From IMG/VR virus record IMGVR_UViG_3300037041_002342, positions 1 to 43,170 of that record: 43,170 bases of DNA. The stretch is one strand, 5' to 3'. Below are positions 1 through 34,114 of the stretch, in pieces. Every line of letters begins with the position of its first letter. The stretch's first letter is position 1. The notes under the pieces were generated by a model that did no database searches, was not told the DNA's origin, and saw only the letters and a list, made by a program, of their open reading frames with translations. Source of the stretch: a virus. Position numbers and translations under genes: made by a program.

Positions 1-253
1 ACCCTGAACACCTTGTGTTCCCTGAACACCTTGGTTTCCTTGATTGCCTTGTAGTCCCTGAAGACCTTGAGTTCCCTGAACTCCCTGGTTGCCTTGTGCA
101 CCCTGCGCTCCTTGTGCACCTTGTGTTCCCTGAACGCCTTGAACGCCTTGATTTCCTTGGTTGCCTTGTGCACCCTGAACACCTTGTGTTCCCTGAACAC
201 CTTGGTTTCCTTGATTGCCTTGTAGTCCCTGAAGACCTTGAGTTCCCTGAACT
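1..253 (-). repeat. Direct repeat of about 82 bp spaced by 171 bp (fibre 1)
   Basis: 1-82 matches 172-253, again with a 171-base offset, in the last collagen stretch of fibre 1. The match meets the left edge. Confidence 0.85.
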
Positions 254-3200
254 CCTTGTGTTCCTTGAACACCTTGATTTCCTTGCAAACCTTGTGTCCC
301 TTGAATCCCCTGAACACCCTCATTACCCTGAGCGCCCTGGACACCCTGACTGCCTTGTACACCTTGAAGCCCTTGCACTCCCTGAACGCCATCAAAGCCT
401 TGCGCTCCCTGTGGGCCTTCGTTTCCTTGCGACCCCTGCATCCCATCAAAGCCTTGAACGCCTTGAACACCATCAAAGCCTTGATCCCCCTGTGTACCCT
501 GCGGTCCATCAAAGCCTTGATCGCCCTGAGGCCCCTGTGACCCTTGCAATCCTTGGATACCCTGCGTTCCAGTTTCACCTTGGTTTCCTTGAAGACCCTG
601 TGTGCCCTGAACTCCTTGTATCCCTTGAGGTCCTTGAAGGCCTTGCAATCCCTGGACATTTAGAGGTGTGCTTGCATACGAATAGTGTATCGTATCTTCT
701 GTGTAGAACGTCAACGTATATGAAGATGAGTCAGCGTTCTTTGCCTGGACCTTTGCAATCAGCCTATCGGTTGGATCTACTGATCCTCCTATGTAGTATG
801 CATCCGTCGTGAACATGACAGGCGTTGTGCTTATGGTACGCACATCTGGATCAGTTGAGAACAGAAGTGTCTCTGTTCCTCCTGTGTCCCTCTTGTAGAC
901 ATCTACCGATATCTCCCAAAGGCTGCTTGAATCTGCTCCTGCATGTATGTTAAATGTCCAAATTCCAGAAGGAATGATGCTTATTCCTGGAACTCCCGTG
1001 TCTGTTGCAAATGATGTGACAGTGACAGTGCTCCCTGAAGAAACGCTTCCTGTGCTTACACTTTGCTGCGGGCCGTTAATCGGAACAGGGCTGAACTGTT
1101 TATATGTAGGAGATCCTATCGCAGACGAAGTATCTAGCGAGTAGTTTAGGTAGTATGTTAAACCACCAGACACGCCATTGTTTCCTGATGCACCCTGGTT
1201 TCCTTGAAGTCCCTGGATGCCTTGAAGTCCCTGAAGTCCCTGAATGCCTTGAAGTCCCTGAAGCCCTTGAAGCCCTTGAATTCCCTGTATGCCCTGTATG
1301 CCCTGTGGTCCAACAGAGAGCCTAGTTATGCTCATCGAAGATCCAGCCTTTATGGTAACGTTCTGGCCTCCTGAATTGAACAGGACATTTATGTACTGAC
1401 CTGCATTGAGACTCGTGTAAAGTGTTATAGGAACAGGTGCAGGTGACACGGTTGACGCGCCATATATCCTAAGGTTGTATGACCAAATGCTTGCACCATC
1501 CTTTTGAACGGTGAATGTTATGACATCTGCAGTTGTTGCAGGATCAACGATGAGCATTGCCTCAATTGCATAGTACCCATTCTCTGCAGCCGTAAATCTT
1601 CCATTAGACGAACTGAAAGACATTCCCAGCTGAGGTATGTTATCAGTATACGTTGAGCCGGTGAATGCATCAGTAGATCCAGAAGATGCAGATGTATCGT
1701 TTGTTCTTGTTATGCTTAAAAGCTGATCTGAGCTTGCTCCGTATGAACCTTGTGCGCCCTGCGTTCCTTGAATCCCTTGGAACCCTTGAAATCCCTGAAA
1801 TCCTGTTGCAATAGGTCCTTGGTTCCCCTGTGTGCCCTGTGTGCCTTGAACTCCTTGGTTGCCCTGATTGCCTTGTGCACCCTGAAGACCCTGAACGCCT
1901 TGAACGCCCTGGTTGCCTTGGTTGCCCTGATTTCCTTGCCTTCCCTGCAGTCCCTGAAGGCCTTGAACTCCTTGTGTGCCTTGTGCACCTTGAACACCCT
2001 GCGTCCCCTGCGCTCCTTGTGCACCTTGAACGCCTTGTGTTCCCTGAAAGCCTTGAACTCCTTGATTTCCTTGGTTGCCTTGGTTGCCCTGATTTCCTTG
2101 GTTGCCTTGTAATCCTTGAAGACCCTGAATTCCTTGTGTGCCTTGAACTCCTTGGGCACCTTGTACGCCTTGAGTTCCCTGTGTGCCTTGCACTCCCTGA
2201 AGACCCTGAACGCCTTGAACGCCTTGAACGCCCTGGTTGCCCTGATTTCCTTGCCTTCCCTGCAGTCCCTGAAGGCCTTGAACTCCTTGTGTGCCTTGTG
2301 CGCCTTGAACACCCTGCGTCCCCTGCGTCCCCTGGTTCCCTTGAAGACCTTGAGCCCCCTGCAATCCCTGAAGACCTTGAGCCCCCTGCAATCCCTGAAG
2401 GCCTTGAGTTCCTTGGTTTCCTTGGTTTCCTTGAAGGCCCTGCATTCCCTGCAATCCCTGAAGGCCTTGGGTTCCTTGTGTCCCCTGAACACCTTGCAAC
2501 CCCTGTGCACCATCTGATCCAGTGCCCTGGAAACCCTGGAATCCTTGGAAGCCCTGTGATCCATCAATTCCTATGCCACCACTCAGGTTCACTATCCAAT
2601 AGTTGTATGAACCGCTTCCTACAGAAAAATCAACAAGGACCTGTAGATCTCCTGTTCCCTGATTATAGGTAACAACATCGCCTAACATGTAGTCTGTTAG
2701 GGAGTTTGCAACCACAACACGTTGAGCAACAGTATATGAAAGTCCATCATCTACTGTTAGGTTTATTGTTGTTCCAGATACTATGGAAAGTGTTGTCCCT
2801 GATGTCGTTTCATAACGATCGCCAGATGCACCTACTTTGCCCTGAAAGCCCTGCGTCCCCTGTCTTCCCTGAAGGCCCTGAATTCCTTGCGTTCCTGATC
2901 CCTGAAGTCCCTGAGCTCCTTGAGGCCCAATGGATCCCTGTCTTCCTTGAAGACCTTGGTTCCCTGCTCCCTGGAGTCCTTGTGTTCCTTGGATGCCTTG
3001 AGTTCCTTGAACTCCTTGATTTCCCTGGTTTCCCTGTCTTCCTTGTAGACCCTGAAGACCCTGATTTCCTTGAACGCCTTGTGGCCCTGATGCAGGCCCC
3101 TGAAATCCCTGAAGGCCTTGAAACCCTCCGCCGCCACCGCCGCCTGGAAGGTTCTCAATTCCCTTGAGGCCGATGTATTTGTAGCATGTGATTGCAGGTG

Positions 3201-3686: not shown

Positions 3687-3935
3687 TTATTCACCATACA
3701 TCTGTTCATACCTAGATGTGTGCTTGCTTTTTCTTACCTTTGGCTTTCCCTTCTTATCACCAGGCAGTTCTTTGTAAGCACTTGGGTCATCATCCTTCAT
3801 CGATGACTGCTTTTTCATCTGCCTTTTCTTTGCCTTTATAGTTGCCTTTGAAAGGCCTTTGAAGTAGGGGTGTGTGGAATCAGTCCACTTTTTCTTTGCC
3901 TCATTGATGATGAAGCTCTCAAAATCCATTATCAT
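3687..3935 (-). CDS. Small basic protein with capsid-targeting-like leader
   Basis: 82 residues, rich in lysine. The N-terminus MIMDFESFIINEAKK has an aromatic-x-x-aromatic pair (FESF) followed by INE and then Ala, like the T4 internal-protein leader MKTYQEFIAEA that the prohead protease gp21 removes. The remainder contains a DDDPSAYKELPGDKKGK stretch and ends SKHTSRYEQMYGE, a segment I recognise from many uncharacterised phage proteins. It overlaps the preceding gene by ATGA. ATG at 3929 is a possible alternative start and keeps the same leader. Likely a DNA-associated protein packaged inside the head; the function is inferred. Confidence 0.8.
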   Translation of the reverse strand: MIMDFESFIINEAKKKWTDSTHPYFKGLSKATIKAKKRQMKKQSSMKDDDPSAYKELPGDKKGKPKVRKSKHTSRYEQMYGE

Positions 3936-4294
3936 TTTAGGAACTTCAATTTTTCTTTTGCATTCTTGCTCTTTGCAACCCTCTTTGCAACATCAGAGTC
4001 TGCGCCGCCTTTTGGGTTCTTCTTGGGAGATCCCCAGGTTCCTTTGCCTCCTGTCAGAAATGAGTTCACGCGTGCGTAGCCCCATTGCTCCTGTCCAGCA
4101 CCTGGTCTGTGGCCAGTCTTCCATGCAGCCATTCCACGCCTCATGACGGTCCTGAGAGCTGACATGGAAACTCCAGTCTTCTCGGACTTCTTTTTTAACG
4201 CCTTCTCAATCTTTTGGCTGTCTATCTCCTTTGCCTCATTGACTGGTTCTGCGTCTTTTAGCAGAAATTCCTGGTATTCTAACAAGTTTCTCAT
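3932..4294 (-). CDS. Small basic phage protein with capsid-targeting-like leader
   Basis: 120 residues. The leader LLEYQEFLLKDAEPVNEAKE contains YQEF, identical to residues 4-7 of the T4 internal-protein leader, and a possible cleavage point after VNE at residue 20. The body carries a segment common in phage genomes: SGVSM-like TGVSMSALRTVMRRGMAAW, then TGHRPGAGQEQWGYARVNSF and GGKGTWG. In other phages this segment often occurs near or fused to the one in the next gene, and here the two genes overlap by ATGA. Divergent from the phosphatase gene, with only 19 bases between start codons. Probably an internal head protein; the biochemical role is unknown. Confidence 0.82.
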   Translation of the reverse strand: MRNLLEYQEFLLKDAEPVNEAKEIDSQKIEKALKKKSEKTGVSMSALRTVMRRGMAAWKTGHRPGAGQEQWGYARVNSFLTGGKGTWGSPKKNPKGGADSDVAKRVAKSKNAKEKLKFLK

Positions 4295-4299
4295 GGGAG

Positions 4300-4307
4300 T
4301 ATATAAT
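4300..4307. promoter_or_regulatory. Shared divergent promoter-like TATATAAT
   Basis: The 19 bases between the divergent start codons (4295-4313) contain TATATAAT on the plus strand. Because TATATA is self-complementary, one element could serve both the minus gene starting at 4294 and the plus gene starting at 4314. Transcripts would have almost no 5' leader. Confidence 0.4.
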
Positions 4308-4313
4308 CATAAC

Positions 4314-4739
4314 ATGAAGAAACAAACGGTCATAGTGGATCTTGATGGCACCATCTCAACAAAGGGAGATAGGGGCTGGTATGAGTACAACAAGGTCTCA
4401 GGGGATATACCAATCCAAGAGGTCATAGAGCTGGTAAGGATGCTGCACTCCAACGGAATCAACATTGTGTTCTGCACAGGACGTGAGGACTCATGCATGA
4501 AGCAATCGATTGATTGGATAAGGAGGAAAGTTTTCATGAGCGACATGGCGCATGTTGAGATATACATGAGGCCATCAGGAGATAGAAGGCCGGACTTTGT
4601 TGTCAAGAAGGAGATCTACGTAAACAAGATAGAGCCAAGGCACAACGTGTGGTTCGTGCTTGACGACAGAAGCTCTGTTGTTAAAATGTGGAGGGACATT
4701 GGTCTTGTCTGCCTCCAGGTTGCAGAAGGGGACTACTAG
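4314..4739 (+). CDS. Polynucleotide 3'-phosphatase (HAD family, Pnkp phosphatase domain only)
   Basis: 141 residues from ATG 4314; an in-frame upstream extension would run antisense through the neighbouring gene, so it is rejected. It matches the C-terminal phosphatase half of T4 polynucleotide kinase (PseT): nucleophile motif VDLDGT near residues 8-13, FCTGRED in the middle, then PDFVVKKEI, and WFVLDDRSSVVKMWRDIG followed by the ending CLQVAEGDY. The kinase half with its P-loop is absent. Such enzymes remove 3'-phosphates from broken DNA or RNA ends so that a ligase can act. A kinase or ligase partner is not visible in this window. First gene of a three-gene plus-strand cassette, one base before the next ATG. 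Confidence 0.85.
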   Translation: MKKQTVIVDLDGTISTKGDRGWYEYNKVSGDIPIQEVIELVRMLHSNGINIVFCTGREDSCMKQSIDWIRRKVFMSDMAHVEIYMRPSGDRRPDFVVKKEIYVNKIEPRHNVWFVLDDRSSVVKMWRDIGLVCLQVAEGDY

Positions 4740-4740
4740 G

Positions 4741-5316
4741 ATGAAGTTCACCGGAAATGAGTCAAAGGAGGAACTGCTCTACAAGGGAATAGAGCTCCTT
4801 GAGAGGTTCTCTGAGAAGAACGGCATAAAGATGCCTAAGGTCTTCATAGACTCAAGTACTGTAAGAGCATACGGGCTGTTCTATCCAAACAACATCATAC
4901 ACGTAAACATGAAGCTGTGCAGGCCTCCTGTGAAGGTCCCAGGATACGACTGGACGTTTCCTGGTTACATACAAGACCTTACTCCGTATGGCATACTTGC
5001 CCATGAATTTGGCCACTACATATCAGACATGCTTGGTAAGAAGTTCAGGAAGAACTTCATCAACATAAAGAAGATAGAAGAAAATGTGACGTCAACTGAT
5101 GAGAGAGGGCTAGATGAGAAGATGGCAGAGGCAGCAAGGCTCTTCATAACAAATCCAGACCTTTTGAAGAGGGGCCGACCTCATCGGTATGAGATATTCA
5201 GCAGACACTACGAGCCAATAGTCAGGAACAGGTGGAAGACGGTCCTAACCAATGCACATCCAAAGATAGTTTCTGCTGCAGAAAGATGGATAGAACGAGG
5301 TTATATAAAAAAATAG
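4741..5316 (+). CDS. Zinc-metallopeptidase-like protein (HEFGH motif)
   Basis: 191 residues from the ATG at 4741, directly after the stop of the phosphatase gene. The motif LAHEFGHYISDML near residues 85-97 is a gluzincin/metzincin-type HExxH zinc site. A third ligand may come from the ERGLDEKMAEAARLF helix about 30 residues later. The fold outside this is unassigned. No signal peptide or membrane segment is seen, so it probably acts in the cytoplasm or in the virion. The family of small phage zincin-like proteins is known, but substrates are not. Cotranscribed with the phosphatase and the 58-residue gene that follows. Confidence 0.7.
   Translation: MKFTGNESKEELLYKGIELLERFSEKNGIKMPKVFIDSSTVRAYGLFYPNNIIHVNMKLCRPPVKVPGYDWTFPGYIQDLTPYGILAHEFGHYISDMLGKKFRKNFINIKKIEENVTSTDERGLDEKMAEAARLFITNPDLLKRGRPHRYEIFSRHYEPIVRNRWKTVLTNAHPKIVSAAERWIERGYIKK
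5301..5308 (+). promoter_or_regulatory. TTATATAA element before the 58-residue gene
   Basis: TTATATAA sits inside the last codons of the metallopeptidase-like gene, 15 bases before the ATG at 5324. It resembles the ATATATA late element but could be chance in AT-rich codons (Tyr-Ile-Lys-Lys). Confidence 0.3.
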
Positions 5317-5323
5317 TTAAGCC

Positions 5324-5500
5324 ATGAAGAAGTACTCAGAAGTTGCCCCAATCGTAAAGAGCAACATAAAGAAGATCAATGCAGAGACGGAGAGAAGCTT
5401 TGCGATGAAGGACATTGAAAACGTCCTCAGCAAGCACAACGCTGCATCGATATCAGAGCTTCCACTCAGCGTGAAGGCACAGCTGATGAACGGAAAGTAA
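5324..5500 (+). CDS. 58-residue hypothetical protein
   Basis: ATG at 5324, TAA at 5498-5500. It begins MKKYSEVAPIVKSNIKKIN and ends ELPLSVKAQLMNGK. Charged and predicted helical, with no cysteine or membrane segment. Codon choice matches its neighbours (AGA for Arg, ATA for Ile), it lies 7 bases after the preceding stop and just before a terminator hairpin, which supports it as a real gene. The family is not recognised. Confidence 0.65.
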   Translation: MKKYSEVAPIVKSNIKKINAETERSFAMKDIENVLSKHNAASISELPLSVKAQLMNGK

Positions 5501-5522
5501 CATCCATTGTTTACAACGACAT

Positions 5523-5557
5523 AAAGGGCTCCATTGATTTTTCAGTGGAGCCCTTTT
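5523..5557 (+). terminator. Rho-independent terminator
   Basis: AAAGGGCTCCATTG (5523-5536) pairs with CAGTGGAGCCCTTT (5543-5556) with one G-T wobble around a six-base loop, followed by T. It ends the phosphatase/metallopeptidase/58-residue cassette. The A tract on the left arm could make it work on both strands. Confidence 0.85.
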
Positions 5558-5558
5558 C

Positions 5559-5567
5559 GATATATAG
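5559..5567 (+). promoter_or_regulatory. Late-promoter-like element GATATATAG
   Basis: GATATATAG lies directly after the terminator and 16 bases before the ATG at 5584. The same nine bases occur before fibre 1 (3677-3685) and before the 501-residue tail gene (22343-22351). This terminator-promoter pair makes the membrane protein gene its own unit. Confidence 0.55.
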
Positions 5568-5583
5568 AGAAAATTCCTGATCG

Positions 5584-6360
5584 ATGTCATCTACTGTAAC
5601 AGACACACTTTCTTTCATAGAGAGAGTTGGCCCTATACAAGGATTCGTGGTGCTTTCTCTTCTTTCTGCAATATTCATATTCACAAGATACTTCATGAAG
5701 AAGATGGACACAAACTTCTTTGAAATGAAGAAGATGAATGAAGGTCTAAAGAGAAAGATAGAAGAGCTGGAGAAAAGGAACGAAGAGATAAAGCAGTCCA
5801 TAGAGGATGCAACAAAGAAGAGGATGGACAAGAAGACCAGCTTCATGAGGAACCACCCGTTCTTTTCAACAGTAGACTACCTCATAGACGTTAAGATACC
5901 TGGGATACACTTCAAGTCTGGGTTCAAAAAGACTGCATTCACTGACATACTCACGTTCAAGCTCAGGGCCTCACAGGAGGTTTTCAGAACATTTGTTGCA
6001 AACGAGTCAAACATAAGCGTTGAATCAATTGAATTCAGAAACAACGTCACAAAGGCAATAAAGGATTCATACACAAGGTTCATGACAGACTGTGAGAGGG
6101 CAAACGTCCCTAAAGTTGTGATGGATTCTTTCAATTCATGGGTAAACCCTCTGACAAGGTTCCTGTTCTCTACGGTTGAGAACATCTGCGACAGCAAGAT
6201 GTACGAGCTGAACGTTGACAAGCTCAATGCAATTCTTAGCATAAACCTTGCTGTGTTTGATGAGATGATATCAAACATTGAGCTCTATCTAGATGAGATA
6301 AACGGGGACTTCAATGGCCTAGTATACAGAGGAATAAAGTGCGAGGAAGAAGAGCACTGA
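5584..6360 (+). CDS. Membrane-anchored coiled-coil protein, unknown function
   Basis: 258 residues. A short N-terminus is followed by one hydrophobic helix at about residues 17-37 (IQGFVVLSLLSAIFIFTRYF), then a highly charged coiled coil at about residues 42-85 (repeated KKMNEGLKRKIEELEKRNEEIKQ pattern in part), then a soluble alpha-helical domain of about 170 residues. This topology would fit an inner-membrane protein with a cytoplasmic domain. It is longer than ordinary holins, and no lysis motif is visible. All 13 arginines are coded by AGA or AGG. Its stop codon abuts the stop of the convergent gene, forming TGATCA. Confidence 0.8.
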   Translation: MSSTVTDTLSFIERVGPIQGFVVLSLLSAIFIFTRYFMKKMDTNFFEMKKMNEGLKRKIEELEKRNEEIKQSIEDATKKRMDKKTSFMRNHPFFSTVDYLIDVKIPGIHFKSGFKKTAFTDILTFKLRASQEVFRTFVANESNISVESIEFRNNVTKAIKDSYTRFMTDCERANVPKVVMDSFNSWVNPLTRFLFSTVENICDSKMYELNVDKLNAILSINLAVFDEMISNIELYLDEINGDFNGLVYRGIKCEEEEH

Positions 6361-7815
6361 TCAGACGTTGCCCATTCCGACGAAAGATGTGAGGTCCTCT
6401 GCCTGTATGTTCAGGCCTATCTCCTCAAACGTTGAACCTGTCACAACAGGTGAGTTCTTTGCAGGTATATCATTCTCCTGTGGCTCTCCTGCTTTGACGT
6501 CCTCTCTTGCCTTCAGTATCAAAGAGCTTCCTCCTGTTGTCACATCCTGTGATTCAACCTCATAGTTTGGAGTGTTCTTTGAGTTTGCAAGATAGACCTC
6601 AAGCTCAAGAAGAGATGGAGTCGATATTGACCCATCAGGGAGCTGAAGCGTTATCTGCCTTGTCGGATCTCCTATTGCAACATCGTTTATTCCAAGAGGG
6701 GCAAGAGGTGCAAATTGCCCATCCCTGTCCTTTGCAATGAACTCAGTGGTGGATACCGGTATGAATGTGTACTTTTTATAGTTGTCCCTAAGCCACTTGT
6801 ACCACTCAGAAAGAGGAATGCCCTTTGAATCTCCGTTGTCAAAGTTCACACGAACCTTGTCGCCTGTGTAGTAGAACGGAGACTTTTGGAACTTGCTAGG
6901 GTTCTTCATGTCATTGAGACAAGCTGTCTTTAGGTTGCTCATGAACGTCACGAAGTTTGACTTTATGTCAGGATCAGATTCATAGAACTGCTTGTAGTAC
7001 GCGCTTATGTAGTTATCACCATTCTGCCATGACAGAATTGGGTTTGGGTTGTTTCCATACTTCTCTTGCCCCATGCATAGGTTCCATGAATCATATATTA
7101 TCATCATCATTGTGTTGAACACGCTGACGTATGTTGATATGATCGGATCATCTCCTACGATTCCTTTTATGTCTGGAAGGTACGGCGTTGTCCATGACAT
7201 TAGTATGTCATCCTCCAATGATTCTTTTCCGTATAGAGCATACCTTGTTGTTGCAGATAGAAGTGTTCCAAATATGAACGCACCTGCTGCTGCAAGCACT
7301 GCACCTTCATTGACCCTTGTGTTTGACTCTCTGATGCCAAACAGCTTCGGCACCCACCCAAATATGCCTCTTGATGCACCTTTTGTTGCAACCTTTGCAG
7401 TTGCTTTGAGAGCAGACTTTCCTATTGAACCAAGGCCTGCAAGAAGGCTTGGGTCTGCCTGAAGGACCTTTCCGAATGGTAGACCAAATCCTGCCAGGTT
7501 TGAGAGGTCGTCATCGTTATTTATGTAGCTAAGCAGGACTTTCTTTGTCTCGCTGTCGTCTGGCCACTTGTACCAGTCATTTATCACCGACTCAAGGATC
7601 TCAGCAGACGTCCTTCCTGAAACGCTTCGCATGAACGTTGAAAGAGGCTGTGTTGCCTTTGCATTTGTGAACTGTTGCACATCCCTTGACGGCCTCACGG
7701 CTGGAAGCTTCTCATAGGCCTGTATTATTCCATTGATGTACTTCCCGGTAAGCTTAGGCTCCGTGAGCTCATCAACTTCATTCAACTTTCCCCAATCTGA
7801 GTAGCTCTTTATCAT
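6361..7815 (-). CDS. Putative internal head protein, 484 residues, with membrane segment
   Basis: The start is taken at ATG 7815, which overlaps the upstream stop as TGATG; a GTG one codon earlier is less likely. The leader MIKSYSDWGKLNEVDE has an aromatic-x-x-aromatic pair (YSDW) and LNE at residues 11-13, a plausible prohead protease site. A second such site, RVNE followed by Gly at about residue 168, directly precedes a hydrophobic stretch of about 25 residues (GAVLAAAGAFIFGTLLSA). The family is not recognised. Leader, membrane segment and position downstream of the portal suggest a capsid-internal protein, perhaps ejected with DNA. The role is inferred. Confidence 0.8.
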   Translation of the reverse strand: MIKSYSDWGKLNEVDELTEPKLTGKYINGIIQAYEKLPAVRPSRDVQQFTNAKATQPLSTFMRSVSGRTSAEILESVINDWYKWPDDSETKKVLLSYINNDDDLSNLAGFGLPFGKVLQADPSLLAGLGSIGKSALKATAKVATKGASRGIFGWVPKLFGIRESNTRVNEGAVLAAAGAFIFGTLLSATTRYALYGKESLEDDILMSWTTPYLPDIKGIVGDDPIISTYVSVFNTMMMIIYDSWNLCMGQEKYGNNPNPILSWQNGDNYISAYYKQFYESDPDIKSNFVTFMSNLKTACLNDMKNPSKFQKSPFYYTGDKVRVNFDNGDSKGIPLSEWYKWLRDNYKKYTFIPVSTTEFIAKDRDGQFAPLAPLGINDVAIGDPTRQITLQLPDGSISTPSLLELEVYLANSKNTPNYEVESQDVTTGGSSLILKAREDVKAGEPQENDIPAKNSPVVTGSTFEEIGLNIQAEDLTSFVGMGNV

Positions 7816-8687
7816 CACAGCAATATTTTGAAGTAGTTATACAATGTAAACGTGAACTGGTTCATCTTTAGTATGTGGGACATGCTTGACTCCCTGAAGA
7901 TGTAGAACATGTTGTACGGATCAAGAGGAGCGTTGTACTGCTTCTTCCTGTCCTCTACTTCCTCTATTCCGTAGACGGTTGATATCATGAATGAAGACGT
8001 TGTAGGAAGTATCAGATCCTGATCTGAGCTCAGGTTCTTAAATGCAGGAATGTCAACCGTTCCAGTCATCTTCATGAACCTATCAACATCGCTTAGTATT
8101 TCGTCAAACCATTTTGGTGGAATGTTGTCTGCCTTGTTTATGAACACCTGGCTGTCTATGTTGATGTCGTTGAATAGCCCATTATCATTGACCGATTCAA
8201 ACATCTTTGCAAGCTTTTCCCAATCGTTTAGGTCATCATCAATCTCAGGAAGCTCTGATGCATTGAATGAACGTTCAAGTCTCTGAAGAAAATTCTCAGA
8301 CTTTAACCTGTTGAACCACATGGAATCATACCACTTGACGAACTCATTGGCTGCATTTGCCTGTTCATCCCTGGTCACTTTGTTCTTGCTCGTCTGCGAG
8401 TTTATGACGGAAAGTGTGGACTTCTTTAGGAACAGATCATTTATACCAGTCTCAAACGATGCCTTGTTCTTGTTGAATATGTCTGATGTTCTTGACATTG
8501 GGCACAGAAAGTTGTTTGCATCCATCGTCTGTGCTGCATACTGCTTCAACAAAAGCCTCTGCGCAACGCACGCAAGAAACTGTGGGTACGTTATGTTTGA
8601 GGCTGCAAGGTTCTTTAGGTTTGAGAACGTAAAGGTCACGCCCATGGCCTGAAACAGCTCACCTACCGGTTGTTGGTCCTTTTCCAT
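7815..8687 (-). CDS. Hypothetical protein, 290 residues, in the head-gene block
   Basis: Starts MEKDQQPVGELFQAMG and lacks the leader carried by the genes on both sides. No membrane segment, cysteine cluster or known motif is seen. Hydrophilic with many aromatic and Asn/Asp residues. It starts two bases after the stop of the 444-residue gene and its TGA overlaps the next ATG, so it is translated with them. Possibly a chaperone or partner for the flanking internal proteins, but this is only context. Confidence 0.75.
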   Translation of the reverse strand: MEKDQQPVGELFQAMGVTFTFSNLKNLAASNITYPQFLACVAQRLLLKQYAAQTMDANNFLCPMSRTSDIFNKNKASFETGINDLFLKKSTLSVINSQTSKNKVTRDEQANAANEFVKWYDSMWFNRLKSENFLQRLERSFNASELPEIDDDLNDWEKLAKMFESVNDNGLFNDINIDSQVFINKADNIPPKWFDEILSDVDRFMKMTGTVDIPAFKNLSSDQDLILPTTSSFMISTVYGIEEVEDRKKQYNAPLDPYNMFYIFRESSMSHILKMNQFTFTLYNYFKILL

Positions 8688-8689
8688 TC

Positions 8690-10024
8690 TTATCCGACCA
8701 ATTTTTTGAACATCGTGATAGGGATTATTATCCTAGTTGACCCGTCTGTATAGAGGCCTTTGATATCAGGCCTTTCTGTCCTTCTAAATCCATGTGTGTT
8801 GCCCCATCCAAGAACATCCGCTCTTACTGATCGTATGGTTGACCTTGAGTCCTTTCTTGCATCTATCCTGTTTGTGTACTCCTCAAACTTGTTCTGCCCT
8901 ATCTGCCCATCAGCAAGCAGTGCTTTAATGATGTTCTTGAACTCAGGAGATAGGTAGCTTATCTTGTACACCTTTATTCCATTGTACTCGTCTTCTTCCA
9001 GACCAGAAGAATATGCCGATTGGTCTTCTTCTCTTTCTGCCTGTCTAGGTGTCGGTATCACGCTTCCTGTTGACATGATGTTTGTGTCACCTATGAGGTC
9101 ATACACCCATGCGCAGCAACCTATGATGAGCATCTTCTGATAAAGGCCAAAAAGGTGTGTGTTGTACAGCGCGCCCATCCATGTTTCTCTTCCTTGCTCA
9201 GGAAGTGCATTGCTCTTTTCTATCACCATCTTTACAGCCGACTTTATTGCAGACATTGCACCTTCCATGTCTGGCAGGTTTGCTTCTAGGTCAGCATCTA
9301 CTATGAAAGAATTGAATGCGCTCTTAACATCTGGATTTATTCCTGCTGTTATAGCATTGGGCTCATACACAGTCGTGTCAAGCCACTTTACATATTGCTT
9401 ATTGTTTGCAATGTTGTTCACAAGCCATGCAAGTGCCTTCTGCCAAGATGACTTTGTGAAGAACGACTTTAGGCTCGTGAATATCTTTGTCATCGGCCCA
9501 GCTGTCGGGTCCGCAGACTTCGTGAGGATTATGGATTCAGACTGGGCCTGTATTGATTCTCCAAGCGATCCTCGTATGAGAAATGCCTCAAACGCAGCTA
9601 TGAACTCTGCCAGATTTTCCTTCTCCTGGTTGTAGAGGTCAAGCTTCTTCTTTGTTCCCCAGTATCCTCTGAGCTTCGCCTTGATTTTTTGCCTCTCCTT
9701 TTCCGGTATAGCAGCATTGAAGATCTTCTTTGTCTTTATGCCCTTCCATGCCTCTACCGCAAACGTGTTTACCATCTGTGCAGCAAACACAGATAGGTCC
9801 TGTTCAGGGCTAAGTATTTCATAGAACGCAGATGCCTTTGGGAACGACTTCTTTTCAATGCCAAAATCCCAAAGCCATCCTGAAACCTTGACATCCGACA
9901 GTGCCTTTCCATCAAGGTTTATACCATCTCCTACAGCCTCATTCATCGGAACGAGATCTGATATCTGCCTTCCTTCAAACATCGGCTTGGGGAGGAATGA
10001 TTCTATGTTCTTAATGTTCTTCAT
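8690..10024 (-). CDS. Putative internal head protein, 444 residues
   Basis: The start is taken as ATG 10024. A TTG five codons earlier would translate the promoter-like element as MIYTS. The leader runs MKNIKNIESFLPKPMFEGRQ and reaches VPMNEAV, with a possible cleavage after Glu29; IESF replaces the aromatic pair. A hydrophobic stretch around residues 305-320 (LIIGCCAWVYDLIG) might be membrane-active. The family is not recognised. Between the 739- and 290-residue genes in the block after the portal. Inferred to be packaged in the head. Confidence 0.8.
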   Translation of the reverse strand: MKNIKNIESFLPKPMFEGRQISDLVPMNEAVGDGINLDGKALSDVKVSGWLWDFGIEKKSFPKASAFYEILSPEQDLSVFAAQMVNTFAVEAWKGIKTKKIFNAAIPEKERQKIKAKLRGYWGTKKKLDLYNQEKENLAEFIAAFEAFLIRGSLGESIQAQSESIILTKSADPTAGPMTKIFTSLKSFFTKSSWQKALAWLVNNIANNKQYVKWLDTTVYEPNAITAGINPDVKSAFNSFIVDADLEANLPDMEGAMSAIKSAVKMVIEKSNALPEQGRETWMGALYNTHLFGLYQKMLIIGCCAWVYDLIGDTNIMSTGSVIPTPRQAEREEDQSAYSSGLEEDEYNGIKVYKISYLSPEFKNIIKALLADGQIGQNKFEEYTNRIDARKDSRSTIRSVRADVLGWGNTHGFRRTERPDIKGLYTDGSTRIIIPITMFKKLVG

Positions 10025-10028
10025 GCTT

Positions 10029-10037
10029 GTATATATC
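10029..10037 (-). promoter_or_regulatory. Late-promoter-like element GATATATAC
   Basis: The minus strand reads TGATATATAC, in which TGA is the stop codon of the upstream 739-residue gene. It ends only 4 bases before ATG 10024, so a transcript from it would be nearly leaderless. Confidence 0.45.
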
Positions 10038-12255
10038 AATTCGTCTTTGATGTGATCATGGAGACAAGGTAGTCCTTCAGCTTGACGAGTGACTTGTCTC
10101 CTGGCTTTCCTGTTACCGGAAGACCCAGCTTCTCTTGGTACGCCTTGATTGCATCCTGTGTGTCATCGTCCAATGTTCCAGAGACAACAACGCTAGGAGT
10201 TTGGCCTTCCTTCCTCTGTATCTGGTTGAGGACCTTCTGGTATTCCTCTATCTCCTGTCTTGTGAAAGACTCCTCATACTCGCCTGCCTCTGTTGAGACG
10301 ATCATCTTGCATATCTTTTCAAGGCCATACAGGTTCATCATTGACCTCATTATTATGCCAAAGGTGGAATACTCCATGACGCCGTATAGCGTTCTCAGCT
10401 TGCCCATCTCCTTGTATACGTCTGAGAACTCAGAGTTAAGGGACAGGTACATCCTTGAGAGCTGCTTCTTTGACTCAAGATCAAAGTCCTGTTCGAGAAG
10501 GGAATTTATGGCATCGACGGTTGCATAGAGGCCGTCTGCATCAAACCCGTAAAACGTCTTGAATGGATCCCTGTTTATGTTGTATGAAAGTATGAGGCCT
10601 GTCATTGCAACGAAAGCCTCTTCCTTCTCACTTAGCTGTTCACCAAGGTCCTTCTCTATCTGTCTGGATCTCTCATTGAACTCCTCTTGCGTTATCACAC
10701 CGTTCTCTTTGAGCGCCTCAGTTACGTCTGACTGGACGAAATCATTCATGATCTTACGCTTGAACGTCGAGAACATCTTCAAGAACTCTCTGGATTCTTC
10801 AATGAGCTCTTGTGTGTTGACAGGCTCATTCGATCCCAACAGTATCTTCATGTTTGGGTTTGAGTAGCTGATGTATCCGTATTCATCAAGAGATGTAGGA
10901 GATCCCTCATCAAAGAACGTTTCCTCTATCGCCTCTGCTGCCATTCCATCTGCCTGTGCAACAACGCTTATGAGTTTTGCTATTCCTATCTTCTCATTTA
11001 TCTTATCTGTAAACCCATAGAAAAGTGAGGACTTCTTCAGGGAATCTTCGTTCTCCTTAAAGTACTTTTCTGGGTATTCAAAGCAAAGCTGTGCAGTCTT
11101 TGCAAAGAAGTCAGCAGTTGTGCTTCCTGCCTTTAGCATCGTATCAAGCTCCTTTGCGTCATCTATTGGAAGGTTCTCTGATCCTCCTGCAAAGAAGAGC
11201 TTGAATATCTCTGCAAAGCTTGCGGTGTTTGTATCGATCTTCGTCAGGGAAACACCTTCCTGCATGAACTTTTCTTTAGATTCTTCCAGGCCTCTTTGGA
11301 AGCTATCGACTGCCTTGTTCTGCTGTTCATTCTTTAGGTAGTTCAACACAATGCCGCCTGTGTACACTGTTGTAGCTAGAACGAATGCTCTCTTGAGGTT
11401 TCTCTTGAATCCGTTCCATAGGCCTCCGTTTTTGTCTGATGGCTTTGATCTTGACGGTCTTGAAACGTCATCGAGGTTTGACTTCCCATCATCTGCCATC
11501 TCTCTGGAAAGCCTCTTTACAAAACCTTCCTTTCCTTGTGACTTAAGCCCTGGAACGGCCTCATCAGCAAGGTTTGCGCCCGGCTCCATGCCTCTTCCAA
11601 GTATTCCGTTCCTTGAGTATATCCTGCTTGAGGACTTTGTGTAAACGCTTGTGCCGCTTGCGCCCTTTAGGAAATCATCCGACTTCTGGGCATACTGCCT
11701 TGCTGCAGCAAGCTTATCAAGGTCGCCAGATTTTGCTGCATCATCAACGGAGCTCTGTGCGTTCTTGATGTCATCCATGTACTGGTTTCTTAGCTTCCTT
11801 GTTGGAATGTCATCTATCTTTGATGTAAGATCATCTATTGCCTTCTGCTCTACGCCTATCTTCTTTACCTTTTCGAGGTACTTCTGTGATGACTGTCTTG
11901 CAGCATTGATCATCCCTTCATCTCCGGCATGATAGCCTGCTATGTACTTCTTTGTTATGTCGTCGCCCTCTTTCTGTAACGCCCTTCTAGACTCCTTCGA
12001 AAGCGACTGCCACCAGGGTTGCTTCTGTGTGTTTATGACATCAGCAAGACCCTTTTCCAGCTTTGATACATCATCAGCAGATGCACCAAACATCTTTCTG
12101 ATGATGCTTCCGACTCCTTTGAATCCGCTCTTGACGAGGTCATCAACCGTTCTTCCTGTCTGTCTTGCGACCGTTGATAGCGCAGCAGAACGTGCATCCT
12201 CATTCAAAGGACCAGCGTTGCTCTGTTTGTTCCACTGATTGAAGTTCTTTATCAT
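10036..12255 (-). CDS. Putative ejected internal head protein with peptidoglycan-binding-like C-terminus
   Basis: 739 residues. The leader MIKNFNQWNKQSNAGPLNED has FNQW and LNE at residues 17-19. A long charged helical region follows, then a hydrophobic segment near residues 290-310 (RAFVLATTVYTGGIVLNYL). The last 65 residues resemble a PG_binding_1 domain: VLNQIQ, then SGTLDDDTQDAIKAYQEKLG and LPVTGKPGDKSLVKL. No catalytic cell-wall motif is seen. A leader for head packaging, a membrane segment and a cell-wall-binding tail together suggest a protein delivered with DNA during cell entry. The domain match is by eye and the role is inferred. Confidence 0.82.
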   Translation of the reverse strand: MIKNFNQWNKQSNAGPLNEDARSAALSTVARQTGRTVDDLVKSGFKGVGSIIRKMFGASADDVSKLEKGLADVINTQKQPWWQSLSKESRRALQKEGDDITKKYIAGYHAGDEGMINAARQSSQKYLEKVKKIGVEQKAIDDLTSKIDDIPTRKLRNQYMDDIKNAQSSVDDAAKSGDLDKLAAARQYAQKSDDFLKGASGTSVYTKSSSRIYSRNGILGRGMEPGANLADEAVPGLKSQGKEGFVKRLSREMADDGKSNLDDVSRPSRSKPSDKNGGLWNGFKRNLKRAFVLATTVYTGGIVLNYLKNEQQNKAVDSFQRGLEESKEKFMQEGVSLTKIDTNTASFAEIFKLFFAGGSENLPIDDAKELDTMLKAGSTTADFFAKTAQLCFEYPEKYFKENEDSLKKSSLFYGFTDKINEKIGIAKLISVVAQADGMAAEAIEETFFDEGSPTSLDEYGYISYSNPNMKILLGSNEPVNTQELIEESREFLKMFSTFKRKIMNDFVQSDVTEALKENGVITQEEFNERSRQIEKDLGEQLSEKEEAFVAMTGLILSYNINRDPFKTFYGFDADGLYATVDAINSLLEQDFDLESKKQLSRMYLSLNSEFSDVYKEMGKLRTLYGVMEYSTFGIIMRSMMNLYGLEKICKMIVSTEAGEYEESFTRQEIEEYQKVLNQIQRKEGQTPSVVVSGTLDDDTQDAIKAYQEKLGLPVTGKPGDKSLVKLKDYLVSMITSKTN

Positions 12256-12262
12256 CTGCTGT

Positions 12263-14407
12263 TTACTTTTTCTTTAGGTATTCTTCTATTGCTTCTGTGA
12301 GCTTCTCCACAATTGGCATCCATTCATCGTCCTCCATTGAATCCATCTTGTGACTCTCCTTCACCTGGTCTCTGAGTTCTTTGCTTATTGCACCGTCCTC
12401 AAACAGTACGTCTTCTATCTCATTGACGAAGGTTCTTAGAGAGTACTTTATGACCTCCAACAGGAATGGTGTGACAAGGTACGCAAATGGATACTGTTCG
12501 CCTCCTAATGCCCTTCCTTTATCAGTATCATTAAGTGCCTTTACAAACCATGAAAGAACGTTGAAGTATTCCTGGTACCTTGCGTCCTTTTGGTTGCTAG
12601 GACCACCAAAGGCAACCTTTGAATGGTACATGATGCTACCCATTGAGATGCACATGTTCTTGACATATGTCTTAAAATCTTCGAGGTCTTTGATCTTATA
12701 AACAAGCTCATCATCTATTTCTATCGAGTACCCGGAAGATGTCTTCTTCATGGTGGCAAAATTGAACTGGTCCAAAAATGTTTCATTGAACGCTTTCAGT
12801 AGGTTCTCGCCTTCAATTGCCTTTGTAAAGAACTCCTTTCCTGATGACGCAATGTCCTTCACCGTCTGCCAAGTACTTGTTGGGCTGAATGCGCTTAGCT
12901 TGCTCTTTGTTATTTCATCAAGTATGAAGTCGCCAACGTTTGCCTTTGCAAATGCCACAGAGTCCTCGTTCTTGTCGCTTAGAGTTTTTGCAGTCTCATT
13001 TCCTCCACTGAAGAGAATGAAGTTTATCTCGGCTACCGCATTGCTGAAGTCCCCGCCTCCAAACTGCCCCAATAGATCAGTCAATTCCATTATTGTAATG
13101 AGAGATTCCTTCTCCTTTCCTAATCTTTCAATGTACATTGCAGCTTCATTTGCGTCATACTTGACAAACATGGCTTCAATGAGGGCTCTATCTTTCTTTG
13201 TCTGGAAGTACTGCGTCTTACTTCTTATGTCACCTATTACCTTATCGAGGTCATCTATGATGTTTTTGAACTTTGCGACCCTCTCTGTTGCTGCAACAAA
13301 AGCTTGGTTGTTTATGAAGTAAACACCCTTGTCTGCCTCTCCAACATCAAGGACCCTTTGGTACTGTGATTTTTGCTTTCTCATTGTCTTTGCTGTCGCC
13401 TTGATCTTGTTTGATACCTCCTCAAGGCAAACTATTCCGCAAAGGATCTTTATGTACGGTTCCCACTTTGTGCCCTTTGCCCAGCCCATACCAATCTCAT
13501 CTATGTCATCTATTGATGAAAGCTCTGTTATCACATCGCTGACAATAGGTTCAAGCTTCGATGGAAACTTTATAGGTCCATCAGCAGCAGTAAATGATGG
13601 GTACTCCTTCGTCAACTGTTGGAACCTAACGATGTCAAAGTCTGCATTAGATCCACTGATGAACTCTGATAGCATCCTTATCGTCATCACCTGTCTGTTC
13701 GATGTGTTGTCTGGGCTTATGCTGTTCACTGCATCAAACATTGAATCAACAAAGTCCTTTATCTTCATTGATCCAGTGTCCTTCATGAATCCACTGAGTG
13801 GGTACTCGGTGAACATTCCAACGTTTTGGTTTGCAAAGTTCTCAAAGTATTGCTCTTGCGACGCCTTATCCGTCTTTATCCTGTTTGGATCCACCATGGA
13901 GGATGCAAAGATGGAATAGAATGATCTGTAAAGCTTCACAAGGTTGTCCTCCATGTCTGAGTCCAGTGATTCTGGAACAGATGCCATGAGATCCTTTGCG
14001 TTCTTTATAGACTCCTTGTTCTTTGCAATTATGAGATCCTGCTGTGAGAACAGCTTAACGAACAGCTGGTAGTACAGGTACATGAAGAACGTTTCCACGT
14101 ACTCATCGTACTCGATCTCTACATCGCCGTTTGGCTTCTCTGTCTTTGTTAGTTTAGCAAACTTCCTTATCTTCTTCTGCGCATCTTGAAGGGCTCCAAA
14201 GAGTTTTCCAAATGGAGCTATCAGACCATTGAACTTTTTGTATGTGAATCCATTTTCTGTCTCACCGAAGAACTTTGTTATCTCTGATCCGCGTCTTGAG
14301 ATTGTCTCGTTAGGAGAAAGCACCTTTGAAATTGGAAGAGGATCTGATCCTGGTGCCTCAGACTGTTTGAAAATATTTGGATTAAATTCTTCTGATAGGA
14401 ACTTCAT
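12263..14407 (-). CDS. Hypothetical large protein directly downstream of the portal, 714 residues
   Basis: Starts MKFLSEEFNPNIFKQSE, 13 bases after the portal stop, and is translated with it. Mostly alpha-helical in composition and acidic, with no membrane segment, zinc site or known motif. The start shows FLSEEF and later a VLSPNE tripeptide, which only weakly recall the leader signature of its neighbours. In T4 this position holds the prohead core and protease genes (67, 68, 21, 22), but no protease catalytic pattern was recognised here. It could be a prohead core or internal protein. Function unknown. Confidence 0.8.
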   Translation of the reverse strand: MKFLSEEFNPNIFKQSEAPGSDPLPISKVLSPNETISRRGSEITKFFGETENGFTYKKFNGLIAPFGKLFGALQDAQKKIRKFAKLTKTEKPNGDVEIEYDEYVETFFMYLYYQLFVKLFSQQDLIIAKNKESIKNAKDLMASVPESLDSDMEDNLVKLYRSFYSIFASSMVDPNRIKTDKASQEQYFENFANQNVGMFTEYPLSGFMKDTGSMKIKDFVDSMFDAVNSISPDNTSNRQVMTIRMLSEFISGSNADFDIVRFQQLTKEYPSFTAADGPIKFPSKLEPIVSDVITELSSIDDIDEIGMGWAKGTKWEPYIKILCGIVCLEEVSNKIKATAKTMRKQKSQYQRVLDVGEADKGVYFINNQAFVAATERVAKFKNIIDDLDKVIGDIRSKTQYFQTKKDRALIEAMFVKYDANEAAMYIERLGKEKESLITIMELTDLLGQFGGGDFSNAVAEINFILFSGGNETAKTLSDKNEDSVAFAKANVGDFILDEITKSKLSAFSPTSTWQTVKDIASSGKEFFTKAIEGENLLKAFNETFLDQFNFATMKKTSSGYSIEIDDELVYKIKDLEDFKTYVKNMCISMGSIMYHSKVAFGGPSNQKDARYQEYFNVLSWFVKALNDTDKGRALGGEQYPFAYLVTPFLLEVIKYSLRTFVNEIEDVLFEDGAISKELRDQVKESHKMDSMEDDEWMPIVEKLTEAIEEYLKKK

Positions 14408-14420: not shown

Positions 14421-16061
14421 TTATTCTACTGTCTCTTCTTCGGCTGCCTCTACCTCTGCTGTTGCTTCTTCCTCAGCTGGCGTCTCACCTGCCTCCTCTT
14501 CTGCTGCCGCTGTTTCTGCTCCTGCCTCTGCTTCTTCTGTTTCAATGATGAGCCTCTTCCTGTTCTCTTCGAGCTCACTTGCTGTAAAGTCAAGGAACTG
14601 TTCAACTAGCCAGTTGACGGAGAAGAATGGCTTGTCACCTTCTGCCTTGAAGTCCTTCAGCTTTGTGATGTGGTCTATCTCCTTCTGGAGGATCTCCATC
14701 TTCTTTGACTTCTCAAAGAGGTTGTCGCTGTTGAACCTTATGCCTATGTTGTTCTTGATGAGAAGATCGTCCTTGAACTCAGGGTGCTTGAGCGTGAACG
14801 CAAGCCACACCGGCTTGTATATGATCTCCTGGAAGCTTGACCTCAAACGGTTGATCAGCTTTGCAAACCTGATCTCCTCACGCTCTGCGCCTTCAGCGTT
14901 GAACGTTATGGTTCCTGCTCCGCCTTCTTGGTTGAACCTGTTGAATGGAATGCCAGATTCCATCTTAAGCTTGTCTCTGAAATACTTCAAGGCATCCATG
15001 TTTGAAAGGTCCGGGCCTCCGTTTTCGATGGCCTCGATGCTTACGGTCTCTCCTCCCTTGTTAGGGAAGATGTAGTTCTTGTAGAACGGGATGTTAGGAC
15101 GTCCCTGAACGTTCAGCTCACCGCTGTCGTTGTCAAGGTATAGGTCCTCACGATAGATCGATGCAAACTGAGAAAGAGACTGTACCCACCTCTGTGGCGA
15201 CTTGGATCCAACTGGAACAACCATCTTCATGCGCCACTGCGCGTTCATGATGTTCCATATGATCCTTGAGTTCTCGAGAACACGAAGCAGGTTGAAGCTT
15301 CTTACGAGCGGCTCAATGTATGATATCGGCCCCACGCCAGATCTTGCATAGGATATGTAGATGATCTGTGAATCGTAGAGGATGCGCCTCTTGTTGTAGT
15401 CGTTCTCATACTGGTACCAGACCTTCTTTCTTATGCCGCCCTCAAGGACAACATCGGGCCTAAGGCTCGCAGGATCAAGCTCCTTGAATCCTATTATGTC
15501 TGTTGCCTTCTCGTTGTAGATGACCTCAAACGCAAGAACGCCTTCAATGACAAACTGTCTAAAAAGGGAGAACGCCTGCTGGTCCTCATTAAACCTGAAC
15601 GCAGTGTAGACCCTGTCAAATGTTGCATTGAGATCATCTATGACCTCCTGCTCCTTGTTATCGGTTACAACGCCTGGAATTCCCTTTGTGTCGATGTAGC
15701 AGAAACGGTTCTTGTTGTCGTAAACGATTGACTCGTCTGCGACAATGTTGATCATGAAGTTTATCTCACCGTTTCTGGCGAACTTCCTGAGCATCTCCCT
15801 CTTGCCAACGTAGTCCTTGTCAAAGTACGTGATGTACTTCTTTGGTCCAACGTCCTGTATGGCAAGCGCATACTGGAGTTCGCTCTGCGTCATAGCATCT
15901 GCGCCTGCAATGTGCGCAAACATTGATTCGGTTGATCCAACAGCCATGGACTGCTTGATCACCATGTCATCGTAGTTCATCCCAAGGTTTGCTATCCTTC
16001 GTATCGTGGAAGCAAGCCTTGAGCTCAACGAGTCATCTTTTCTGTCAAAAAAACCTGCCAT
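14421..16061 (-). CDS. 20: Portal vertex protein (T4 gp20-like)
   Basis: 546 residues, close to the 524 of T4 gp20. The portal forms the dodecameric ring through which DNA is packed and ejected and nucleates prohead assembly. Support: the block IEAIENGGPDLSNMDALKYF, then RDKLKMESGIPFNRF, and later AEREEIRFAKLINRLRSSF, which correspond to the conserved middle of gp20 (the eidirYFqnKLykalnvPisR region and the EItRdElkF region). The C-terminal 40 residues are an unusual Glu/Ala-rich tail. It heads a minus-strand run of head genes and has a late-type element 16 bases upstream. Confidence 0.88.
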   Translation of the reverse strand: MAGFFDRKDDSLSSRLASTIRRIANLGMNYDDMVIKQSMAVGSTESMFAHIAGADAMTQSELQYALAIQDVGPKKYITYFDKDYVGKREMLRKFARNGEINFMINIVADESIVYDNKNRFCYIDTKGIPGVVTDNKEQEVIDDLNATFDRVYTAFRFNEDQQAFSLFRQFVIEGVLAFEVIYNEKATDIIGFKELDPASLRPDVVLEGGIRKKVWYQYENDYNKRRILYDSQIIYISYARSGVGPISYIEPLVRSFNLLRVLENSRIIWNIMNAQWRMKMVVPVGSKSPQRWVQSLSQFASIYREDLYLDNDSGELNVQGRPNIPFYKNYIFPNKGGETVSIEAIENGGPDLSNMDALKYFRDKLKMESGIPFNRFNQEGGAGTITFNAEGAEREEIRFAKLINRLRSSFQEIIYKPVWLAFTLKHPEFKDDLLIKNNIGIRFNSDNLFEKSKKMEILQKEIDHITKLKDFKAEGDKPFFSVNWLVEQFLDFTASELEENRKRLIIETEEAEAGAETAAAEEEAGETPAEEEATAEVEAAEEETVE

Positions 16062-17916: not shown

Positions 17917-18216
17917 TTACGACAACGACTTGATGTTTGATGCAAGGCGGTAGTATATCTCTTGAAGCCCGTTTGTGTTGACATCAATGTCATTCAGGTC
18001 ATGTATGACACCGTTCAAGGTCTTCAGCATATCATTTAGCTGATCGATCTTTGTGTATATGCTGAGCTTCTTCTGCTCGCGATCTATTTCTTTCTTTACG
18101 TTTATTATCTGACCATGATAATCCACGTCATCAGCGTTTATGTGGCCTTCAAAAAAAGAAGACTGATCCTGTGAATCAGTCTTCAAGAAAGAATTTACAT
18201 CCTTTATGTTCTTCAT
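17917..18216 (-). CDS. Hypothetical protein, 99 residues
   Basis: Starts MKNIKDVNSFLKTDSQDQSS, similar to the beginnings of the leader-bearing head proteins (MKNIKNIESF), but no hydrophobic-Asn-Glu cleavage point follows; HINADD is the nearest. The rest is a charged helix likely to form a coiled coil (KKEIDREQKKLSIYTKIDQL). Lies 10 bases after the 852-residue gene. Could be a small internal or scaffold protein. Function unknown. Confidence 0.65.
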   Translation of the reverse strand: MKNIKDVNSFLKTDSQDQSSFFEGHINADDVDYHGQIINVKKEIDREQKKLSIYTKIDQLNDMLKTLNGVIHDLNDIDVNTNGLQEIYYRLASNIKSLS

Positions 18217-28398: not shown

Positions 28399-29589
28399 TT
28401 AGAATAGTCTTTTGCTTGTCACTAGGTTTCCCGGCACAGGAGGAAGTCCTATCACCTCAAGGAAACGGTTTATCGGAGATATCAGAGTCTTCTCAAACTG
28501 AACATCAAAGTTCATCTTTGGCGCAAACTCATAGGGAAAAGAATCTGTGTGGTATGCAAACACCTGGTCGTCGCCTTCTGCATAGTAGTACTTTACCTTG
28601 TCTCCGGACTTTATCATTTCATACTTTGCCTTCCACTTTTTGTTCTGTCCAAGCATGTAGTTGTAGTAACCAGCTGCCCTGACGTGAACTGGACACTTGC
28701 TTCTGACCTCAAAGGGCTTTGTAAGATCCCTGTCGTTTGCGATATACTTCTCGTAGTCGCTAATGCCCTTTGTTATCGATATCTTCTCAATTGGTTGGAT
28801 CTTGAACTCTGCCTTTAGATCCTTAAGTATCTTCACAAAGTCTGCGTACTGTATCGACTTCTTGTGTGTGAAGATGTACTTCATCAGCTCCTTCATCTTC
28901 TCTCTGACGAACGGAGGCGTCGATCCCTGGACGATCTCAACACCTTTTGGCTTGATCTTTGTCAGGCTCTGTATGTCGATGCCTGGATCCTTCCAGACGG
29001 GATTGAGAACGTACTTCTTCTTTGCAATGAATATCGCAGACTCTGATATCATCTCCATCTCAAAGTTCTGGAGGTTATTAGTATTGAACTTGTCTCCATA
29101 CTTGTCAAAGCACTTGTTTAGAAAGGCCTTCAAACGGACATCGTACAGCCTGAGTATCAGCTCCTTCGGATCTCCTTGCCACTTACAGCTTCTTATGATT
29201 GGTTCAAACGTTACGTATGATGAATCAGTGTCGTTGTAGAACGTGACCATATCCGTTATGGGAGAGACCTCACAGTCTATGCCAAGCTGCTCGTGGGTCT
29301 GTGTGTCCTTGTGCCAGAACTCCTTAAAGTACAGGTTTATGTACTTGTCTGCATTCTTGATGATGTCCTGGCCCTGAAGCGTGATAGCCTCAGCGATGTC
29401 AGTGTTGTACATGATGAAGTACTTGCTTCCATATGCCCCATAGACAGAGTTGATGAGGAGCTTGATCGACTGCTCCTCATTCGTCTTCTGCATCTTTATT
29501 ATCTCAAGCCTGTCTATCTCTTTCTGTATCTCATCATGGGACCTTGATGTCCAGTCTCCAAGATCAAAAGATATGGAATCAATCTTCAT
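28399..29589 (-). CDS. 43B: Family B DNA polymerase, C-terminal fragment (gp43B-like)
   Basis: 396 residues; T4 gp43 has 898. Residues 35-70 contain motif B, SIKLLINSVYGAYGSKYF (K43, N47, Y50, G51), and motif C is YNDTDSSYV at 118-126 (D120, D122). The thumb region follows, and the protein ends in TSKRLF, a possible sliding-clamp-binding tip like T4 LDFLFG. The exonuclease domain and motif A (DxxSLYPS) are absent, and the gene upstream is the clamp, so the N-terminal half must be coded elsewhere. The split lies in the fingers, about 40 residues before motif B. Starts inside the end of the clamp gene (11-base overlap). Confidence 0.92.
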   Translation of the reverse strand: MKIDSISFDLGDWTSRSHDEIQKEIDRLEIIKMQKTNEEQSIKLLINSVYGAYGSKYFIMYNTDIAEAITLQGQDIIKNADKYINLYFKEFWHKDTQTHEQLGIDCEVSPITDMVTFYNDTDSSYVTFEPIIRSCKWQGDPKELILRLYDVRLKAFLNKCFDKYGDKFNTNNLQNFEMEMISESAIFIAKKKYVLNPVWKDPGIDIQSLTKIKPKGVEIVQGSTPPFVREKMKELMKYIFTHKKSIQYADFVKILKDLKAEFKIQPIEKISITKGISDYEKYIANDRDLTKPFEVRSKCPVHVRAAGYYNYMLGQNKKWKAKYEMIKSGDKVKYYYAEGDDQVFAYHTDSFPYEFAPKMNFDVQFEKTLISPINRFLEVIGLPPVPGNLVTSKRLF

Positions 29590-34064: not shown

Positions 34065-34114
34065 GATGTTTTATCTTTTTAGTTGAAGGTTGAACAAATA
34101 TACTAAAAGAAGGC

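Follow-up and report, generated by a model that had tools for sequence, protein, structure and literature searches.

The window analysed here, a 43,170-base virus record without a host genome (IMGVR_UViG_3300037041_002342), contains a late gene cluster and the gene for a T4-type portal protein, gp20 (Portal_T4 E = 5.6e-59). The nearest named portal matches belong to an uncultured 462-kb phage (42%), Prevotella Lak phages (35-36%) and 634-735-kb phages (33-34%). Near relatives in IMG/VR have portals 88-95% identical to that of the window, and the late cluster of a 260-kb contig (IMGVR_UViG_3300034012_003212, hereafter G012; portal identity 73%) is syntenic with it. No relative was found when GTDB genome contigs were scanned with the portal alignment. 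Judged by its nearest portals and without a tree, the window qualifies as a putative fragment of a T4-like huge phage of the Mahaphage type (460-735-kb phages); the published clade naming takes in the 634-735-kb genomes as well as the Lak genomes (PMC7162821).

Five minus-strand genes, encoding proteins of 82, 120, 484, 444 and 739 aa, start with a leader made of an aromatic residue (or Ile), two residues, a second aromatic and, further on, hydrophobic-Asn-Glu (Table 1). This common leader had been described in a first-pass annotation of the DNA, and we recovered it on all five genes. The bodies behind the leaders carry different domains; each of the three large proteins has a hydrophobic segment, and one has a peptidoglycan-binding domain. 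In the 444-aa protein the first aromatic is replaced by Ile. A sixth gene, encoding a 99-aa protein, is likely to be tagged as well, with a predicted non-NE site (SSFFE/G, with MFLE/G in G012), and the earlier figure of at least five packaged proteins, in which packaging is itself inferred, is a conservative count.

Table 1. Features of the late cluster and portal region (all on the minus strand; a slash marks the predicted cut)
Feature	Position	Leader or site	Leader position	Basis or remark
82-aa basic protein	3687..3935	MIMDFESFIINE/A	3900-3935	body shares a segment with phrog_3041
120-aa DUF5824 protein	3932..4294	MRNLLEYQEFLLKDAEPVNE/A	4235-4294	domain match
484-aa protein	6361..7815	MIKSYSDWGKLNE/V	7777-7815	W8, N12 and E13 invariant in four orthologues
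Possible second cleavage site, 484-aa protein	7306..7314	V-N-E, residues 168-170		precedes hydrophobic segment
290-aa late-cluster protein	7815..8687	no such leader		syntenic 297-aa G012 orthologue
444-aa protein	8690..10024	MKNIKNIESFLPKPMFEGRQISDLVPMNE/A (long leader)	9938-10024	orthologue alignment
739-aa protein	10036..12255	MIKNFNQWNKQSNAGPLNE/D	12199-12255	C-terminal peptidoglycan-binding domain, PG_binding_1 E = 1.7e-9
714-aa late-cluster protein	12263..14407	no such leader		syntenic 777-aa G012 orthologue
T4-type portal protein gp20	14421..16061			Portal_T4 match; marks phage group
99-aa protein, candidate sixth tagged	17917..18216	MKNIKDVNSFLKTDSQDQSSFFE/G	18148-18216	G012 orthologue begins MKNITSIDMFLE/G

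Several other features of the window were recorded. The 82- and 120-aa proteins (3687-4294, minus strand) match separate parts of a single long family, phrog_3041 'cytidyltransferase', and the latter also matches a gene of Pelagibacter phage HTVC008M annotated as a cytidyltransferase. A 3' phosphatase domain of the polynucleotide kinase type stands alone at 4308-4739 on the plus strand (HAD_PNKP E = 1.8e-46). At 28399-29589 (minus strand) a family B DNA polymerase is represented by its C-terminal part alone: the DNA_pol_B match starts at profile position 147, the reading frame begins shortly upstream of the KLLINSVYG motif, and the gene appears split, with no adjoining N-terminal half. Two very long proteins with collagen-like G-x-Q repeats, probably fibres, occupy 34090-37959 and 37977-43169 (plus strand), and the low-complexity start of the window (about 1-3200) resembles these genes.

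Conservation of the leader and its excess at gene starts

Orthologue alignments show which leader residues are kept. I7, F10, L11, P12 and E29 of the 444-aa protein are invariant in four orthologues, as are F5, Q7, W8 and E19 of the 739-aa protein in five (identity down to 23%), among which the W8-E19 spacer varies in length and sequence. Across relatives down to 23-36% identity the leader anchors (F5/W8, W8 and F10) and the closing Glu are kept while the spacer changes, which is the pattern expected of a selected signal. Near relatives carry the short leaders too: the 81-aa orthologue of the 82-aa protein starts with MITFEEFIVNE/A (L065), and the counterpart of the 120-aa protein with MKNLLEYNEFLLKEEESINE/A (L061). 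Since the sites in G012 orthologues read SIDE, VLYE and VNE, the rule is best stated as hydrophobic-x-Glu with Asn favoured. Within the 484-aa protein N169 and E170 are likewise invariant in four orthologues while adjacent residues vary, suggesting that this protein may be cut a second time; the inferred cut is comparable to that of SPN3US gp47, a protein with a transmembrane segment at the N-terminus of its mature form (PMC5694885). An AlphaFold model of the 484-aa protein was of low confidence (pLDDT 57) and had no credible PDB match, and PDB sequence searches with the 739- and 484-aa proteins returned nothing.

To set the leaders against chance, we called genes in the window, in near contigs, in a 27- and a 62-kb contig (portals about 41% identical) and in five complete genomes (462, 636, 735, 642 and 542 kb); start codons were chosen by a simple rule, a caveat on the leader calls. 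A strict leader was defined as Met, up to 8 residues, aromatic-x-x-aromatic, up to 3 residues and [ILVM]NE. In the window and two near relatives, [ILVM]NE[ASVGND] occurs 14 times within residues 2-45 against 2.8 expected from protein interiors, with no enrichment of xKE, xSE, xAE or xEE near N-termini, and there are 5 strict leaders against 0.1-0.4 expected; as the three genomes are related, these leaders are not all independent. The more distant relatives gave larger numbers: 11 strict leaders in the 27- and 62-kb contigs together, and 11, 19, 46 and 24 in LR756500, LR756504, LR756501 and LR756502, where 0.1-1.4 are expected by N-terminal shuffling and 0-2.8 from interior methionines. We estimate roughly ten to seventy predicted tags per related huge virus. 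For validation we used 78 loci fetched solely because they encode the protease-scaffold described below. Among their 744 distinct genes, 82 have a strict leader (1.3 expected), a minority of these being the capsid protein itself, matched at an internal Met through its likely processing site (e.g. MSKYCHYHQLNE).

AT-rich proteomes that are rich in Asn, Glu and aromatics could yield such starts by accident, and with a looser pattern some do: LR756504 has 24 starts with the core motif where interior methionines predict 5.7, about a quarter. We nevertheless give practically no credence to chance or composition bias as the source of the leaders, given that the validation loci have 82 where 1.3 are expected. 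Moreover, when x-N-E, x-D-E, x-S-E, x-T-E, x-A-E and x-E-E were compared, x-N-E alone was enriched near N-termini in all four sets tested, with no consistent excess of xDE, xSE, xTE or xAE, and a Prevotella Lak phage used as a control shows no clear excess (3 strict leaders, 0.7-1.3 expected). A conserved tag with an excess specific to gene starts is a demonstrated property of these genomes.

Tagged proteins and candidate cargo

When 189 tagged proteins were stripped of their leaders, BLAST sorted them into 155 clusters, 137 of which were singletons; with most of them unlike any other in the set, the leader is demonstrably a tag shared by unrelated proteins. In an alignment of tagged proteins the consensus is confined to the leader, with almost nothing beyond it. 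Most have no domain match. The domains that could be recognized include PPK2 and a 2H phosphoesterase with an Acb1 match (two phages each), leucine-rich repeats (five paralogues), methyltransferases, radical SAM, OmpA and peptidoglycan-binding domains.

The PPK2 polyphosphate kinases start with MISNYDNFMNE/S (L113:15222-16436) and MINNFIKFINE/E (L175:679-1845). The two phosphoesterases, which are homologous and match Acb1 (anti-CBASS), have leader-like starts, MNFYSNFDDFLLE/K (L080:3145-3699) and MIKKYLEFMKE/S (L189:6773-7312). A tagged 557-aa protein of LR756504 (L087:7456-9129) has a peptidoglycan-binding domain, like the 739-aa protein of the window. SbcD-like and DnaB-like proteins that matched loosely look like start-calling errors and were excluded as examples of cargo. 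A basic charge, as in T4 internal proteins, was also rejected as a common property, the tagged proteins being no more basic than average.

Prohead protease, cleavage sites and scaffold repeats

The first-pass annotation had called for a gp21-type protease. None is present on the 43-kb fragment: neither an S77 protease nor a capsid gene was found in the window or on its nearest contigs. Relatives do supply the protease. In G012, which also has a capsid gene, an S77 protease scores 46.6 bits, above the Pfam cut-off, and all five complete relatives searched gave an S77 match, two of them above the curated cut-off. The protease of G012 lies about 150 kb from the portal, and that distance in a syntenic contig would account for its absence from the window. 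Two contigs (L219 and L220; GC 0.43-0.44) with a protease 67% and a capsid protein 78% identical to those of G012 may, we infer, come from the window's own clade.

Sites resembling those of the leaders are found on the structural proteins. Capsid proteins mostly have LNE or LYE near the position matching the processed site of T4 (matched by eye), and the junction between protease domain and scaffold is mostly VNE or VYE, with N more often than Y as the middle residue at both. Capsid-protein and junction residues showed no matching pattern of covariation; N and Y are both accepted. In the leaders of every tagged genome N comes first at the middle position, with K, L, F, Y, V and S also used, so that the preference for x-Asn-Glu proposed earlier stands as a preference and not as an exclusive rule. 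About twenty leaders of the 735-kb LR756501 (loci L023 and L108-L142) end in hydrophobic-Lys-Glu, for example MIKNYSKYIKE/S, a sign that the site preference of that phage may be broader or that it may have a second one.

Mutagenesis of the T4 IPIII leader assigned targeting to residues 4 and 7 (Y4, F7) and processing to residues 8 and 10 (I8, E10) (PMC9026906). The T4 leader reads MKTYQEFIAE/A, and the pattern aromatic-x-x-aromatic-hydrophobic-x-Glu falls on these four residues, in support of the earlier reading of the window's leaders as T4-like. Very probably, then, the leaders serve as T4-type capsid-targeting propeptides. Incorporation into the head, trimming and injection are inferences, and we found no virion proteomics for the group. 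The N-terminal aromatic-x-x-aromatic segment would dock the protein into the internal scaffold during prohead assembly; the S77 prohead protease would then cut after hydrophobic-x-Glu, with Asn favoured as x, and the mature protein, now free inside the head, would be delivered along with the DNA. The three large proteins of the window would then serve in ejection or DNA entry.

A short amphipathic segment at the N-terminus can also direct a protein elsewhere, and since the function of most tagged proteins is unknown, the leader might sort them to the host membrane, a replication compartment or the tail, with Asn-Glu an uncut part of a docking helix. We consider this improbable: it leaves unexplained why the same hydrophobic-x-Glu recurs both where protease and scaffold join and, in the capsid protein, close to the site processed in T4, why the layout of the leader matches the targeting and processing residues of T4, and why the scaffold units share its core.

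These scaffold units bear on how a capsid-targeting leader could dock. In ten relatives the protease continues into a scaffold, which in nine consists of about 8-14 tandem copies of a 14-residue repeat, YSEYIAENLDKNIA; in LR756500 the repeats are degenerate, with two strict copies. The protease-scaffolds of G005, G007, LR756504, LR756501 and LR756502 contain 11-14 copies of the core motif, and no other called gene has more than 7. The repeat core, YSEYIAE, resembles both the leader and YQEFIAE of the T4 leader. The relatives' genomes thus establish a protease, matching sites in the capsid protein and a scaffold of tag-like repeats, at the level of sequence. An AlphaFold model of the protease-scaffold, of low confidence (pLDDT 54), renders the repeat region as one long helix (residues 253-417).

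That the tag works by imitating a scaffold repeat is an inference that we rate as evenly balanced. In that case it would be a portable copy of one repeat from the protease-scaffold polyprotein (up to about fifteen 14-residue repeats), and one repeat-like unit followed by a hydrophobic-Asn-Glu site would load any protein into the head; taken together, these two statements could equally well prove right or wrong. The tag could instead dock on a partner that also binds the scaffold repeats, such as the capsid protein, the protease or another core protein, and the likeness would then reflect shared recognition. We lean slightly against this reading and still regard it as a serious possibility. Leaders and repeats differ systematically, leaders favouring F and N at the positions of Y and A in the repeats, and LR756500 has 21 leaders despite its degenerate repeats; a profile built from repeats alone is enriched just 1.5- to 3.6-fold at N-termini, weakly so in LR756504. 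On the other hand, the third motif position, which played no part in leader selection, is D, E, Q or N in 184 of 234 leaders and in most repeats (83% in the validation set), compared with 46 of 177 interior matches. The Prevotella Lak megaphages point the same way. They share with the tagged phages a T4-type portal, an S77 protease-scaffold and a capsid site, KLNE/D, and differ in that their scaffold has no tandem repeats and their genes no clear excess of leaders.

Known systems and what the tag may reveal

The known kind to which the tagged proteins belong is that of the T4 internal proteins and Alt (IPI-III and Alt, with gp21 as protease). Both systems have an N-terminal stretch of 10-20 residues with aromatics at the Y4 and F7 positions (PMC9026906, PMC3012670), a cut after hydrophobic-x-Glu and unrelated bodies, and the genomes of the window's relatives encode an S77 protease. 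They differ in number, our strict scan finding two MKTYQEFIAE leaders in T4 and 11-46 per complete huge-phage genome; in the middle position, Ala in T4 and Asn in the huge phages; and in the fusion of the huge-phage protease to a repeat scaffold and the often large tagged bodies, which are not especially basic. The phiKZ-like giant phage SPN3US likewise removes many head and ejection propeptides with a gp21-related protease (gp245), and has an ejection protein with an N-terminal transmembrane segment in its mature form. Its propeptides, however, are mostly longer than 100 residues, with the motif A/S-x-E, and it has no short common tag and no confirmed scaffold counterpart (PMC5694885).

The Rak2-like jumbo phages GAP32 and CBB share the T4-type portal and an S77 protease, annotated 'prohead core scaffold and protease'. 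In GAP32, by contrast, the presumed scaffold, an adjoining protein of 375 aa, has a gene of its own and lacks the tandem repeats, and the 90 kb of GAP32 and CBB that we examined showed no apparent leader excess. We considered the CBB proteome (PMC5259590) as an experimental test and rejected it: because the stretches examined have no leader excess and the two mass-spectrometry-detected proteins that we checked have no leader, it does not apply.

What is new here is the number of tagged proteins, the preference for Asn, the scaffold of tag-like repeats and the listing of candidate head proteins by means of the tag. In the papers searched, neither tags of this kind in huge phages nor docking through repeats had been described, which is weak evidence as only open papers were covered. 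How the capsid-targeting sequence of T4 finds the core may have a testable answer, namely that it looks like a piece of the scaffold. It takes virions to see which proteins a huge, uncultured phage brings into its host. With a tag that is short, specific and ends in a cut site, the head proteome becomes predictable from any contig of the group, and sequence alone may be enough to read the head cargo of these phages, which is probably delivered into the host. The tagged PPK2 kinases and Acb1-type phosphoesterases point to enzymes, some of them possibly for counter-defence, delivered at infection. If imitation of the scaffold is true, the genomes of these phages bear a readable address code for tens of injected proteins, and the cargo it lists apparently includes PPK2 kinases and Acb1-type (anti-CBASS) 2H phosphoesterases.
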